A stretch of DNA of 64,000 nt from positions 310,001 through 374,000 of the forward strand of contig NZ_QQRR01000001.1 in the NCBI RefSeq assembly GCF_003439925.1. Reading direction: 5' to 3'. The notes under the pieces were generated by a model. That model was not told the DNA's origin and did not search any database. It was given only the letters and a program-made list of their open reading frames with translations. The DNA comes from Haloprofundus halophilus (GTDB lineage: Archaea > Halobacteriota > Halobacteria > Halobacteriales > Haloferacaceae). This document shows positions 49,375-56,512 of this stretch, one piece after another. The first letter of the stretch is position 1; the number at the start of each line of letters is the position of its first letter. A program made the position numbers and the translations under genes.

Positions 49375-49833
49375 CTACCGGTCTTCGAGCGCGTCGGCGA
49401 TGCGCTGGAGCTGTCGGGTCTGGTCGCGGACCTCGTCGCGGAGCTGTCGAACTTCGCGGACGAGCGCCTCGTTGTCGTCACTTTTCTCCTCGGACCGACC
49501 GCCGGGGCCGCCGCCCATACCGCCGGGACCGCCGCCGCCCATCATGCCGCTCATCATCTGCGCGAACGGGTTGCCGCCGCCGCCGCCCATACCGCCGGGG
49601 CCCCCGCCCATACCGCCGGGACCGCCGCCGCCCATCATCTCGGCCATCGGGTCCTCGCCTTCTTCCCCGCGCTCCTCTCGCTCTTGGGCGCGCCGCTCTC
49701 GAATCTCCTCGACGCGCTCGCGGAACGATTTCTCTTCCTCCTCGGAGTCGCCGGAGTCGGCGTCGACGTTCTCCTCGGCTTCGACGTTCACGTCCTCAGA
49801 TTCTGTCGACTCGTCGGGTTCGTCTTCTGGCAT
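49375..49833 (-). CDS. Acidic protein with Gly/Met-rich core and C-terminal coiled coil
   Basis: 152 residues in three parts: an acidic, disordered N-terminus with charged helix (EEEEKSFRERVEEIRERRAQ, about 1-60); a Gly/Met/Pro core of repeated GGGGPGGMGGGPGG with NPFAQMMSGMM between (about 62-112); and a C-terminal coiled coil (EALVREVRQLRDEVRDQTRQ). No Cys, signal peptide or membrane helix. No family recognised. It may be a scaffold or condensate-prone protein; that is speculation. Confidence 0.72.
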   Translation of the reverse strand: MPEDEPDESTESEDVNVEAEENVDADSGDSEEEEKSFRERVEEIRERRAQEREERGEEGEDPMAEMMGGGGPGGMGGGPGGMGGGGGNPFAQMMSGMMGGGGPGGMGGGPGGRSEEKSDDNEALVREVRQLRDEVRDQTRQLQRIADALEDR

Positions 49834-51518: not shown

Positions 51519-52304
51519 TCACCCGAACGCGCCGAGGCTCGACTGTAGCTCTCGGTCGCTCTCGCCCTCGCGGAGCTCGTAGCCGACGAGGTCGCGCATG
51601 TCGACGGCGTACGTCGTCCCCGCGTTTTCGAGGACGAGCAGTCGCCCCTTCGTGCCGACGACGCGCCCGGCGGCGATGGTCTCGCCCATCGGTCGGCTGT
51701 CGAGGCTGAAGCCGTAGTCGAACGCGAAGCTGTCGAGCGGGTCGAACTCGGCGAGAAGCGACTCCCACTGCTCGGCGTCGACCCGTCGGTGGAGACCCGC
51801 CCGCTTCGTCGGGACGCGCACCCGGTCGGTCAGCTCTCGGGCGAGTTCGGACTCGATTTCGCGGGCGATGCGGCCGTTTTCGACGGTTCGGAGGTGGGCG
51901 GCCCTGTCAGCACCCTGCTCTCGAAGGCGGGTGTCGAGTCGCCACTCCTTGGTGACGCCGACCTTGAACACGTCCGGCGCGAACGCCGCGAGGTAGACGG
52001 CGTGGTCGTCGAAACAGTCCATCTCGTCTTTGAGACACGTCCCTCGGCAGCGCGCGCAGACCCACGTGCTCCGGTGGTACTCGCAGTGGGGGGCGTCGTC
52101 GTTCTCGCAGGCGTAGTGGCCCTCGTCGGCGACGGTGCCTGCGCAGTGTCGCCCCCCGAGTCGGTACGCGAGTTCGTCGCCGGCGTCGAGCGGGAGATAC
52201 TCGACTTCGGTCGGGTCTGTCGGTGTCCCGTCACCGAGTGTCGCCCCGCCGCTCGGCGCGAGATAGAGTCCTCCGTCGAGTGAATCGTAACCGACGACTT
52301 GCAC
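51519..52304 (-). CDS. DUF2797 family protein
   Basis: 261 residues. N-terminal strand VQVVGYDSLDGGLYLAPSGG, cysteine/His-rich middle (HCAGTVADEGHYACEN, HCEYHRSTWVCARCRGTC, EMDC; about residues 70-120), then VFKVGVTKEWRLDTRLREQG which resembles a GIY-YIG-like or DUF2797 pattern. Function unknown. GTG start at 52304 is supported by a TATA-like box 26 nt upstream. The upstream in-frame extension to 52403 lacks promoter support. Confidence 0.82.
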   Translation of the reverse strand: MQVVGYDSLDGGLYLAPSGGATLGDGTPTDPTEVEYLPLDAGDELAYRLGGRHCAGTVADEGHYACENDDAPHCEYHRSTWVCARCRGTCLKDEMDCFDDHAVYLAAFAPDVFKVGVTKEWRLDTRLREQGADRAAHLRTVENGRIAREIESELARELTDRVRVPTKRAGLHRRVDAEQWESLLAEFDPLDSFAFDYGFSLDSRPMGETIAAGRVVGTKGRLLVLENAGTTYAVDMRDLVGYELREGESDRELQSSLGAFG

Positions 52305-52326
52305 GGTTCCCAGTATCCGGTCCGAC

Positions 52327-52334
52327 GGTAAAAG
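52327..52334 (-). promoter_or_regulatory. TATA-like box of the DUF2797 gene
   Basis: On the minus strand cttttacc is centred about 26 nt before the GTG at 52304, indicating a leaderless transcript and fixing the start. Confidence 0.5.
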
Positions 52335-52509
52335 CGTCTCTCTCGGCGGCGCGTACCGTCGCACCCGACGCAGTTTCGGCCGCGTCTCTCTCCATTCGAT
52401 CAAATCTCTCCCCCATCTGACAGTCTGATGTCGGTGAGAGAACGGCTCTCGCGACGGTCGTGTCGGTCGAAATTAGAGATAAGCGATAGTGGTTCGAACC
52501 ACTCGAAGG

Positions 52510-53712
52510 ATGTCGAGACAGTCAGCGGCGACGCGCAGAGGGGTGTTGCGGGCAGTCGGCGGGGGCACGGCGACCGGACTCGCGGCGGGGGGCGCTCGGA
52601 GAGGAGGCGGAAACGCCGGTGACACCGCCGTGGTGAACGTCGGGATCGACGCGACAGCCGGAGCCCTCGGTTGCGACGTCGTCCGCCGGGTCGCGACCCG
52701 AGTCGTCCGGCAGTTCGCCTTCGACGCGCTGACGGTCGAACTGCCGCGGGAGGCCGTGGCGACGCTTCGGCGACGCCCCGAGGTCAGGTACGTCGAACCC
52801 GACAGGACGATGCGAACGTATCAGCAGTCGGCGTCTCAGACGGTTCCGGAGGGCGTCTCCCGCATCGGCGCGCGACTCGCCCACGAGGCGGGCGTCACGG
52901 GCGACGGCGTCGACGTCGCTATCGTCGACTCCGGCGTCGACTCCGACCATCCGGACCTCCGCGAGAACCTCGGGGACGGGCGGGCGTTCGTCAACTGCCG
53001 GGGTCGGCCGCGACTCTGCCGCGTCACCGGCAACGGGAACGCCTGCAAGACCAACTGGGACGACGACGACGACCACGGAACCCACTGCGCGGGCGTCGTC
53101 GGAGCCCTCGACAACGACGAAGGAGTCGTCGGCGTCGCTCCCGAGGCGACGCTCCACGCGGTGAAAGTGATATACTGCGCCGGGGTCGGGCTGGTCTCCG
53201 ACATCGCCGCCGGAATCGAGTACGTCGCCGACAGGGGCTGGGCCGTCGGGAGCCTCAGTTTCGGCTCGCAGCGTCCGACGAACCTCGTCCGCGACGCCTG
53301 TCGGTACGCCGCCGACGAAGGGGTGTTACTCGTCGCCGCCGCCGGAAACGGCCGTTCACGGCCGAACACCGTGGGGTTTCCGGCGACGCTGCCGACGGTG
53401 TTGGCGGTGAGCGCCGTCGACCGTAACGGCGGGTTCGCGGGTTTCTCGTCGACGGGACCCCGAATCGACATCGCAGCTCCCGGCACGGGCGTTCGTTCGA
53501 CGGTTCCGGGCGGCTACAGGACGTACTCTGGAACGTCGATGGCGTGCCCGCACGTCGCCGGAGCCGCGGCGCTTCTCGTCTCGACCGGGCTCTCGACGAC
53601 CGAAGCCCGCGAGCGACTCGTCGGAACCGCCGACGACCTCGGGCTCGGACGGGTCGAACAGGGTGCCGGTCTGCTAAACGTCGCGGCCGCGCTGGACCTC
53701 GGTGACGACTGA
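52510..53712 (+). CDS. Subtilisin-like protease with Tat-type N-terminus, first of a tandem pair
   Basis: 400 residues, S8 family (halolysin-like). The N-terminus has a twin-arginine site (ATRRGVLRAVGGG) but a weak, Gly/Ala-rich h-region interrupted by Arg; an inhibitor I9-like propeptide follows (about 40-105, ending RYVEPDRTM). Triad: D140 (VDSGVDSDHPDL), H189 (DHGTHCAG), S343 (SGTSMACPH), with the oxyanion AAAGN. Compared with the paralog downstream it has an extra Cys-rich insert before the His motif (NCRGRPRLCRVTGNGNACKT). An upstream GTG at 52489 is the alternative start. Confidence 0.88.
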   Translation: MSRQSAATRRGVLRAVGGGTATGLAAGGARRGGGNAGDTAVVNVGIDATAGALGCDVVRRVATRVVRQFAFDALTVELPREAVATLRRRPEVRYVEPDRTMRTYQQSASQTVPEGVSRIGARLAHEAGVTGDGVDVAIVDSGVDSDHPDLRENLGDGRAFVNCRGRPRLCRVTGNGNACKTNWDDDDDHGTHCAGVVGALDNDEGVVGVAPEATLHAVKVIYCAGVGLVSDIAAGIEYVADRGWAVGSLSFGSQRPTNLVRDACRYAADEGVLLVAAAGNGRSRPNTVGFPATLPTVLAVSAVDRNGGFAGFSSTGPRIDIAAPGTGVRSTVPGGYRTYSGTSMACPHVAGAAALLVSTGLSTTEARERLVGTADDLGLGRVEQGAGLLNVAAALDLGDD

Positions 53713-53822
53713 TTCCTCAGCTCAATACTGTTAGTAAATATCTACATCAAGAGTGTAATTTATCGGCAAAATAGTTCAATTCCTGAAGTTATAAAATAGA
53801 TTAATTCTTCTGACTGTTCGCA
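53713..53822 (+). promoter_or_regulatory. AT-rich promoter region between the protease genes
   Basis: This 110-bp gap is strikingly AT-rich for this genome. A TATA-like ttataaaata at 53789-53798 is centred about 29 nt before the ATG at 53823. The second protease therefore has its own strong, probably leaderless, promoter. Confidence 0.65.
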
Positions 53823-54977
53823 ATGTCGGATGATACCACGGGTGTAACTCGGCGTAACGTGCTGAAGACGACGGGCGTAGCGGTCGGTGTCGGCGGACTC
53901 GGCGGACTGGCGACGGCGAAAGGTAACGACAACCTCGTCGAAGTCAATCTCGGATATAGCGAGCAGAGCGGCAGACGAGCGGCTGAAAACGCCGCATCGA
54001 GCGTCGTCCGACGGTTCAACTTCGACGCGATGACCATCGAGGTCGACGAGAACGCGGTGAAGGGCCTCCGGAAACGCGGAGACGTTCGCTACGTCGAGGC
54101 CAACGGTCAGATGCACGCGTTCGCGCAGTCGACGCCGTACGGAATCGACCGCGTCGACGCGGACGTTGCCCACGACAACGGCGAGACCGGCGCAGGTGCC
54201 GACGTGGCTATCCTCGACACCGGTATCGACTCCGACCACCCCGACCTGCAGGCGAACCTCGGCGAAGGCAAGGCGTTCGTCTCGGCGAAAGGGCCGTACA
54301 ACGAGTCGTGGGACGACGACAACGACCACGGCACTCACTGCGCCGGGACGGCCGACGCTGTCGACAACGACGAGGGCGTCGTCGGCGTCAGCACGGAGGC
54401 GACGCTCCACGCGGTGAAGGTGCTCGACAAGCGCGGCAGCGGGTCGTTCTCCGACATCGCGGCGGGTATCGAGTACACCGCCGACCAGGGCTGGGACGTC
54501 GCCAGCATGAGTCTCGGCGCGTCCAGCGGGTCGCAGACCATCAAGGACGCCTGTACCTACGCCTACGACCGCGGCGTGTTCCTCGTCGCCGCCGCCGGCA
54601 ACGACGGGCCGTGCAGCGACTGCGTCGGCTACCCTGCCGCCTACTCGGAAGTCGTCGCCGTGAGCGCCACCGACAGCAACGACGACCTCGCCTCCTTCTC
54701 CTCGACCGGGTCGGAGGTCGAGATCGCCGCGCCCGGCGTCGACGTGGAGTCGACGGTCCCCGGCGGCGGCTACGACGTGTTCTCGGGTACGTCGATGGCG
54801 TGCCCGCACGTCGCCGGCGCGGGTGCGCAGCTGATGGCCAACGGGTACACCAACACCGAGGCGCGCGACCGACTCGCTTCGACGGCCGAGGATATCGGTC
54901 TCGCGTCGAACGAACAGGGCGCCGGACTGCTCGACACCGCGGCGGCGCTCGGTCTCGACTCCTCCGACGACCTGTAA
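53823..54977 (+). CDS. Subtilisin-like protease (halolysin type), second of a tandem pair
   Basis: 384 residues. Clear Tat signal VTRRNVLKTTGVAVGVGGLG, I9-like propeptide (about 38-100, ending RYVEANGQM), then S8 catalytic domain: D132 (LDTGIDSDHPDL), H169 (NDHGTHCAG), S324 (SGTSMACPH). No C-terminal Ig or PPC extension, unlike larger halolysins. About as long as its upstream paralog, suggesting tandem duplication. An inhibitor gene follows after 37 bp. Confidence 0.92.
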   Translation: MSDDTTGVTRRNVLKTTGVAVGVGGLGGLATAKGNDNLVEVNLGYSEQSGRRAAENAASSVVRRFNFDAMTIEVDENAVKGLRKRGDVRYVEANGQMHAFAQSTPYGIDRVDADVAHDNGETGAGADVAILDTGIDSDHPDLQANLGEGKAFVSAKGPYNESWDDDNDHGTHCAGTADAVDNDEGVVGVSTEATLHAVKVLDKRGSGSFSDIAAGIEYTADQGWDVASMSLGASSGSQTIKDACTYAYDRGVFLVAAAGNDGPCSDCVGYPAAYSEVVAVSATDSNDDLASFSSTGSEVEIAAPGVDVESTVPGGGYDVFSGTSMACPHVAGAGAQLMANGYTNTEARDRLASTAEDIGLASNEQGAGLLDTAAALGLDSSDDL

Positions 54978-55014
54978 ACCCGAACGTTATTCCTCGCTTT
55001 TTCGTACCCAACGT

Positions 55015-55359
55015 ATGTTCACAGCAACGCTCACCGCGACGCCGCGAGACGACCTCGTAGAGTTCGGACTGACCGTCGAGAACCGGGGAGACGAGCGCGC
55101 GACGCTCTCGTTCCGTGACGCTCAACGCGCGGAGTTCGTCGTCAGCGACGCCAGCGGCGACGGCGAAGTGTGGCGCTGGAGCGACGGCCGCATGTTCGCG
55201 CAGATGCTCGGGAGCGAGACGCTCGACCCCGGCGAGTCGACGACGTTCGAGGGCGTCTGGGACGACCCGGAACCGGGCGACTACGTCGCCGTCGGCGAAC
55301 TGGCGGCCGTCGACGCCGACGCGGAGGCGCAGACGAAGTTTTCGGTGGAGTCGGTGTGA
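55015..55359 (+). CDS. BsuPI-type intracellular proteinase inhibitor
   Basis: 114 residues without signal peptide. Beta-sandwich matching the BsuPI family (intracellular proteinase inhibitor of Bacillus, Pfam-type BsuPI): FGLTVENRGDERATLSFRD, then AEFVVSDASGDGEVWRWSDG and RMFAQMLGSETLDPGESTTF, followed by EPGDYVAVGELA. It is directly downstream of two Tat-type subtilases, with its own TATA-like box acgttattc at 54984-54992. Likely holds back protease activity in the cytoplasm; inference. Confidence 0.85.
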   Translation: MFTATLTATPRDDLVEFGLTVENRGDERATLSFRDAQRAEFVVSDASGDGEVWRWSDGRMFAQMLGSETLDPGESTTFEGVWDDPEPGDYVAVGELAAVDADAEAQTKFSVESV

Positions 55360-55371
55360 CCGACGGGCCGA

Positions 55372-56316
55372 CTACGACTCGCGCTCGGTGCGAAGTTCGT
55401 CGTACAGTTCCTCTGCGGCGCGTTCGACCGCCTCGTCGCTGGCAGTCGACGGCTCCCACCCGAGCGCGGAGAGTTTCTCGACGGAGAGGCGCATCTTCGG
55501 CACGTCGCCTTTCCACCCGCGCTCGCCGCCGGTGTACTCGTACTCGGGGTCCAGTCCCATCACGTCGGCGACGATGTCGGCGATGCGGTTGACCGAGGTG
55601 GTCGTCCGCGTCCCCAGATTGTAGGTGTTCATCGATTTGTCCGCGTTTTCGACGACGTGACAGATGGCGTCGACGCAGTCCTCGACGTAGAGGTACGACT
55701 TCTCCTGGCGGCCGTCGCCGAGGATGGTGAGCGTTTCGGGGTCGCCGAGCAGTTTCTCGATGAAGTCCGGAATGACGTTGCCGCGCTGCTTCGGCCCGAC
55801 GATGTTGGCGAAGCGGAACACCCACGCGGTGAAGCCGTGCGAGTGCGCGTACGTCGACATCAACGCCTCGTCGGCCAGTTTGCTCGCGCCGTAGGCGCTG
55901 ATGGGTTCGATGGGTGCGTAGTCCTCGGGCGTCGGCCGCGGGGCCTCGCCGTAGATGGTCGAGGAGGAGGTGAACGCGACGTCGTCGACGCCGGCCTCGT
56001 CCATCCGTTCGAGGACGTTGTACGTCATCTCGGTGTTCTCCTCGAACAGTTTTCTCGGGTCCTCGTAGTTCGTGTCGGTGTACGCCGCGAGGTGGAAGAC
56101 GACGTCGACGTCCTCGGTGATTACCTCGGCCACGTCGGCCGATTCGCGCATGTCCGCTTGGACGAACTCGACGTCGTCGGGGACGCGTGACTCGGTTCCT
56201 TTCGAGAGGTCGTCGGCGACGACCACGTCGTTCTCGGTCGACAGTTTCGCCGCGAGGTGCGACCCGACGAGACCCGCCCCGCCGGTGACGACGACTCGCT
56301 TGTCTACGAGGTTCAT
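55372..56316 (-). CDS. NAD-dependent sugar epimerase/dehydratase (GalE-like)
   Basis: 314-residue short-chain dehydrogenase of the extended type. Rossmann motif VVVTGGAGLVGSHLAAKL near the N-terminus, FTSSSTIYGE, catalytic YGASK in PISAYGASKLADEAL, and FRFANIVGPKQRGNVIPDFI. Similar to UDP-glucose 4-epimerase or dTDP-glucose dehydratase-type enzymes; likely in cell-surface sugar synthesis. The start at 56316 is at the Rossmann strand; a longer in-frame version begins at 56463. Convergent with the inhibitor gene (12 bp apart). Confidence 0.88.
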   Translation of the reverse strand: MNLVDKRVVVTGGAGLVGSHLAAKLSTENDVVVADDLSKGTESRVPDDVEFVQADMRESADVAEVITEDVDVVFHLAAYTDTNYEDPRKLFEENTEMTYNVLERMDEAGVDDVAFTSSSTIYGEAPRPTPEDYAPIEPISAYGASKLADEALMSTYAHSHGFTAWVFRFANIVGPKQRGNVIPDFIEKLLGDPETLTILGDGRQEKSYLYVEDCVDAICHVVENADKSMNTYNLGTRTTTSVNRIADIVADVMGLDPEYEYTGGERGWKGDVPKMRLSVEKLSALGWEPSTASDEAVERAAEELYDELRTERES

Positions 56317-56378
56317 ACTCCAACCTCCGCCGACGGCAGTAAGTCGATTGTGGTCGCTCGCGCGTTTCGAGAGTCGGT

Positions 56379-56458
56379 CGGAGCCGTCGTGGAAGCACCG
56401 GGACCGTCGCGGGGGCATCGGAGCCGTCGTGGCAGCACCGAAGTCGTCGCACCAGCAG
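56379..56458. repeat. 20-nt tandem repeat, four copies
   Basis: Units of exactly 20 nt start at 56379, 56399, 56419 and 56439 (consensus CGGAGCCGTCGTGGCAGCAC). They lie in the divergent region between the epimerase and trm56 genes. Confidence 0.88.
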
Positions 56459-56512
56459 CGCACTGCGTCGAGTTCCGAAACCCCCTAACCGACGGCTCGC
56501 CTCGGACAGCGC

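Follow-up and report, generated by a model that had tools for sequence, protein, structure and literature searches.

Twin-arginine subtilases adjoin a BsuPI-family protein in Haloprofundus halophilus: a probable protease and intracellular-inhibitor module of haloarchaea

We analysed a window of 64 000 nucleotides from the haloarchaeon Haloprofundus halophilus (contig NZ_QQRR01000001.1, positions 310,001 to 374,000), in which three co-directional genes on the plus strand encode two S8 subtilases, S8a (positions 52510–53712 of the window, 400 aa) and S8b (53823–54977, 384 aa), and a 114-aa protein of the BsuPI/IPI family (55015–55359; hereafter BsuPI). The intergenic gaps were 110 bp between S8a and S8b and 37 bp between S8b and BsuPI. 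Two minus-strand genes outside this module flank it and provide syntenic markers: a divergent DUF2797 gene (51519–52403; PF10977), which is kept in most loci, and a convergent gene encoding an NAD-dependent epimerase (55372–56463; PF01370), which is a conserved neighbour. The same block occurs in four other Haloprofundus genomes, with one or two S8 genes and with BsuPI proteins that are 77–85% identical, and about four further S8 genes are found elsewhere in the H. halophilus genome. We also observed, at about 49375–49830 on the minus strand and within a longer mechanical ORF, a frame for an acidic protein with Gly/Met repeats (GGGPGGMGGG) and a coiled-coil-like C-terminus.

A reading of the locus from its sequence alone (hereafter the sequence-only reading) had described both S8 proteases as carrying twin-arginine N-termini and I9-like propeptides, and both features were recovered in our analysis. 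The two ORFs, present at the coordinates given above, matched Peptidase_S8 in Pfam (PF00082; E = 1.5e-52 for S8a and 6e-57 for S8b), and each contained a Tat motif near its N-terminus, which reads TRRGVLR in S8a (TRRGVL at 52531–52548, plus strand) and TRRNVLK in S8b (53847–53867, plus strand). In an alignment of 54 linked S8 relatives, the twin arginines were invariant (R10 and R11 of S8b, together with L14), as were the catalytic Asp, His and Ser residues (D132, H169 and S324 of S8b). The I9 propeptide of S8a was detected by Pfam (PF05922, E = 1.1e-4), and that of S8b was recognised by fold only, from the secondary structure of the predicted model, in which about residues 37–95 (53931–54107, plus strand) adopt a beta-alpha-beta-beta-alpha-beta arrangement. 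This model (pLDDT 87.6) comprised the I9-like propeptide and a subtilisin domain, and its best PDB match was pro-subtilisin E (3whi). Both S8a and S8b stop within about 15 residues past the catalytic domain, and the halolysin-type C-terminal extension is thus absent.

BsuPI was the sole family that Pfam found in the 114-aa protein (PF12690, E = 4.7e-29; 100.8 bits against a cut-off of 22.9; positions 2–98 of 101). The protein also matched the crystallised IPI of Bacillus subtilis by sequence (E = 3e-9), and when its predicted model (pLDDT 96.5) was compared with known structures, B. subtilis IPI (3ISY) ranked first with TM values of 0.84/0.82, which corresponds to the IPI variant of the Ig fold. 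Rigden et al. docked IPI into the subtilisin cleft via residues 62–68, KMFTQAF (PMC3901451). In the alignment with 3ISY, this segment corresponds to RMFAQML of the window protein (residues 59–65; 55189–55209, plus strand), a putative inhibitory wedge. Across 75 haloarchaeal BsuPI sequences, F61 of the wedge was invariant, and the putative P1 residue Q63 was Gln in 89% of the sequences and Met in the rest. Doubts have been raised as to whether B. subtilis IPI is truly an inhibitor and whether it is intracellular (PMC3901451).

The absence of a signal peptide from the window protein, as proposed in the sequence-only reading, was confirmed. Because its ATG coincides with the first beta strand, there is no space for such a peptide, and no N-terminal extension, Tat/Sec signal or lipobox was found in any of the 89 haloarchaeal BsuPI ORFs that we checked, all of which start at the domain. 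An upstream alternative start that would supply a signal peptide, which is the complication encountered with B. subtilis ipi, was also considered and rejected, as a hydrophobic or lipobox extension was present at 0/89 loci. These results bear on the possibility that BsuPI works outside the cell, which it would reach via lysis or an unknown route, and curbs extracellular proteolysis there. Secretion is common among bacterial BsuPI proteins (PMC3901451; see also the Myxococcota proteins L137 and L138 below), and lysis of haloarchaeal cells occurs in the death phase (PMC6085418), but the uniform lack of export signals in the 89 haloarchaeal ORFs makes an extracellular role very improbable.

The upstream sequences suggest that BsuPI is probably transcribed from its own promoter in the 37-bp gap. 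When the upstream regions of 59 haloarchaeal BsuPI genes were aligned, irrespective of whether an S8 gene was adjacent, an AT-rich peak appeared at –28 to –25 and a second one near –10, which is the pattern of haloarchaeal leaderless promoters. In the window, the probable A-box of this promoter, TTATT (54986–54990, plus strand), lies at –29 to –25 of the leaderless BsuPI start, inside the gap.

We examined how often the two gene families are linked in 391 Halobacteria genomes. Close relatives of S8b were located within 8 kb of BsuPI in at least 37 genomes from at least 19 genera; because BsuPI coordinates covered about three quarters of the positive genomes, the number of linked genomes is a lower bound. 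Among the nearby protease matches listed, 53/53 were on the BsuPI strand and 47/53 were upstream of it, the closest gaps being around 50–150 bp. The commonest arrangement was a conserved block, DUF2797-[S8]n-BsuPI-epimerase-Trm56, and the pairing was found in at least five unrelated neighbourhoods in all (DUF2797/epimerase, MatE, thioredoxin-reductase-like, panB and a Tat-protein cluster). For example, at the MatE (L111), thioredoxin-reductase-like (L069) and panB (L063) loci, BsuPI comes about 30–105 bp after a longer Tat subtilase that carries an Ig domain, and in the Tat-protein cluster (L051) the partner of BsuPI is a Tat S8 that has diverged to 41% identity. At three other loci (L066, L110 and L127), the proteases lie on the opposite side of BsuPI. 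The number of proteases per locus ranged from none to five, with fragments in several cases, and each locus examined contained a single BsuPI.

In family f6, tandem arrays combine one BsuPI with three to five Tat subtilases, of which some are broken or fragmentary (L105–L109 and L085–L087); two of these arrays (L105 and L106) consist of five tandem S8 genes each. There is rapid protease turnover at a single locus in this family.

BsuPI was present in 212 of the 391 genomes. A general S8 profile search was uninformative as a test for partners, since some S8 occurs in 337/391 genomes. Subtilases resembling S8b were divided by length, where short denotes an open frame of ≤460 aa measured stop-to-stop, a cut-off that was set after viewing the data. 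In the S8b search, the best four candidates per genome were scored. BsuPI was found in 66 of the 67 genomes with a short subtilase, compared with 146 of the 324 genomes without the short form (Fisher's exact test, P = 5e-19), raw counts that are inflated by the shared syntenic block. The sole genome with a short subtilase and without BsuPI is an 82% complete assembly. The association was retained after stratification by family (P = 1e-12) and by genus (P = 1e-4), in tests that take genomes within a stratum as independent and hence overstate the evidence. It also persisted when linked genomes were removed (17/18, stratified P = 2e-4), where it rests mainly on family f3 (7/8 versus 10/60). Genome size was rejected as a confounder in this family (3.48 Mb in BsuPI-positive genomes versus 3.65 Mb, P = 0.2).

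Because co-occurrence persists without linkage, it does not represent mere hitch-hiking, and pure synteny was rejected as its sole cause, the pair being found in other neighbourhoods and co-occurring when unlinked. The association first noticed in a single genome accordingly extends to adjacent pairs in at least 19 genera and is significant in stratified and unlinked comparisons; the BsuPI–Tat subtilase pairing is more than chance. That the two are coincidental neighbours with unrelated functions would fit the finding that about 70% of BsuPI genomes lack a short S8b-type enzyme, but is hardly credible in view of the same-strand linkage, the co-occurrence tests and the pairs found in several neighbourhoods.

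The association is one-way, in that a short Tat subtilase predicts BsuPI, and 146 BsuPI genomes make up the fraction without the short enzyme. Ten BsuPI genomes had no PF00082 match at all, and orphan BsuPI proteins in five of these ten have a domain that is 42–50% identical to the window protein. These genomes weigh against a role in which S8 enzymes are the only targets, and BsuPI has, or had, another target in genomes without an S8b-type enzyme. In one rival explanation, BsuPI restrains another cytosolic protease or peptidase, and the subtilases adjoin it only through an old DUF2797/epimerase/Trm56 syntenic block. In addition to the ten genomes and their retained domains, the many genomes, mostly of family f4, in which BsuPI remains beside DUF2797 without a local S8 are consistent with this explanation. 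However, S8–BsuPI pairs exist in four contexts outside the block and also with the protease on the side of BsuPI that faces away from DUF2797, and co-occurrence survives in the absence of linkage, so that we regard it as unlikely.

The DUF2797 gene itself, in divergent orientation, accompanies BsuPI very stably across haloarchaeal families, whether or not proteases lie between them. In six genomes with no PF00082 match (G199, G035, G219, G299, G149 and G038; loci L100–L104 and L084), BsuPI remains next to DUF2797 or to another member of the block, and in the protein of L100, Met replaces the putative P1 Gln. We also considered whether orphan BsuPI proteins have lost the wedge, as a sign of lost function; this was rejected, as motif types and counts were alike with or without a neighbouring S8.

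The Tat route carries already folded proteins. We consider it likely that the locus is a module of proteases and an intracellular inhibitor that protects the cell from Tat proteases active before export, where binding, inhibition and protection are what we infer. Two outcomes that would have spoken against the sequence-only reading, a pairing confined to this genome and signs that the inhibitor is exported, were not seen, and both results favour that reading. The premise of the sequence-only reading, that an active Tat subtilase can arise in the cytoplasm, is documented for the halolysin SptA: the mature active enzyme builds up inside ageing cells (PMC6085418), and in Haloferax volcanii, mutation of the SptA Tat signal led to intracellular active enzyme and cell death, according to the account of Du et al. 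(2015) given in PMC6085418.

Under the proposed mechanism, S8a and S8b would be made as pre-pro-enzymes that, as their signals imply for Tat substrates, fold in the cytoplasm and are then exported. The propeptide would serve as a first lock. Cytosolic BsuPI would serve as a second lock: if any enzyme shed its propeptide while still in the cell, the wedge of BsuPI, RMFAQML (residues 59–65), would bind in the active-site cleft of that enzyme. As BsuPI has no export signal, it would remain inside, and the exported enzyme would be free of inhibition outside. With its own probable promoter, BsuPI could be expressed whether or not the proteases are, and a single copy could act on several Tat subtilases, whether encoded nearby or elsewhere. 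The anatomy of the locus is most simply read as encoding a cytosolic inhibitor that cannot leave the cell with the enzyme.

REMP chaperones attend redox enzymes in Tat proofreading, and BsuPI might similarly be a maturation or export escort that binds the folded pro-enzyme and is not an inhibitor. Such an escort makes the same genomic predictions, namely a cytosolic location, linkage to Tat substrates and one copy per several proteases, and Ig-like folds are frequent in protein–protein interaction (PMC3901451). Nevertheless, the BsuPI/IPI family is reported to inhibit subtilisins with a nanomolar Ki (PMC3901451), and conservation falls on the segment docked into the active site and not on a surface for binding signal peptides, which makes the escort role improbable.

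On a Myxococcales contig (L133, 1562–3282), a lipobox-bearing Sec-type S8 is followed directly downstream by a BsuPI with its own signal/lipobox, whose motif, GEVWRWSAGRMFAQML, is nearly identical to the window wedge. Here, an exported protease is paired with an exported BsuPI, and the compartment of the inhibitor thus matches the route of the protease. BsuPI is rare in Myxococcota (4/284 genomes), and for two other BsuPI proteins of this phylum, which are larger and signal-bearing (L137 and L138), no S8 match was found within 1.5 kb on either side, so that the compartment idea has one bacterial pair in its support. We tentatively raise the possibility, about which we remain rather doubtful, that BsuPI acts as a general immunity factor for proteases folded prior to export, with a location that follows the protease route (cytosolic with Tat, exported with Sec as in L133), and that one independently expressed copy acts in trans on all Tat subtilases and thereby allows lineage-specific protease expansions.

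Proteases folded ahead of export endanger the cell that produces them, and few studies have addressed how haloarchaea, which export many proteins via Tat, cope with this danger. The link between BsuPI and subtilases directs attention to a specific single-copy gene that can be deleted. It is also relevant to a question left open in 2013, namely whether IPI/BsuPI genuinely inhibits proteases and in which location, and co-expression of BsuPI would be a simple test in halophilic protease production.

The sequence-only reading had suggested that a module of Tat proteases and BsuPI is not established in archaea, and the open-access literature is consistent with this suggestion. In that literature, PMC3901451 was the sole relevant paper using the term BsuPI, and none of the halolysin papers found named a cytosolic inhibitor, subscription papers being mostly outside the search. 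According to the 2013 survey, IPI and subtilisin genes are not close together in any completely sequenced species (PMC3901451), and the BsuPI–subtilase gene linkage appears to be new.

Among known systems, Isp1 and IPI of B. subtilis share with the Haloprofundus module the inhibitor family, its fold and its wedge segment, the S8 target class, and a described form of the inhibitor without a signal peptide. In B. subtilis, however, the target is intracellular and has a short propeptide, the IPI gene does not neighbour a subtilisin gene, and a longer start could yield a signal peptide (PMC3901451), whereas the Haloprofundus enzymes are predicted to be Tat-exported, have I9-type propeptides and are encoded by genes that adjoin that of the inhibitor. 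Classical halolysins carry a C-terminal extension, unlike S8a and S8b; a halolysin without it has been reported, to judge from the title of Hou et al. (2022) as cited in PMC12893001. S8a and S8b otherwise resemble the halolysins SptA, HlyR4 and Nep, which are likewise haloarchaeal, Tat-exported S8 pre-pro-enzymes.

A similar logic is known from staphopain B and staphostatin (sspBC) and from SpeB and Spi, in which the gene for a secreted protease precedes that of a cytosolic inhibitor guarding against premature activity. As in Haloprofundus, the inhibitor gene adjoins the gene for the exported protease; in contrast, these systems are bacterial, their enzymes are cysteine proteases exported via Sec, and their inhibitors have folds unrelated to that of BsuPI.
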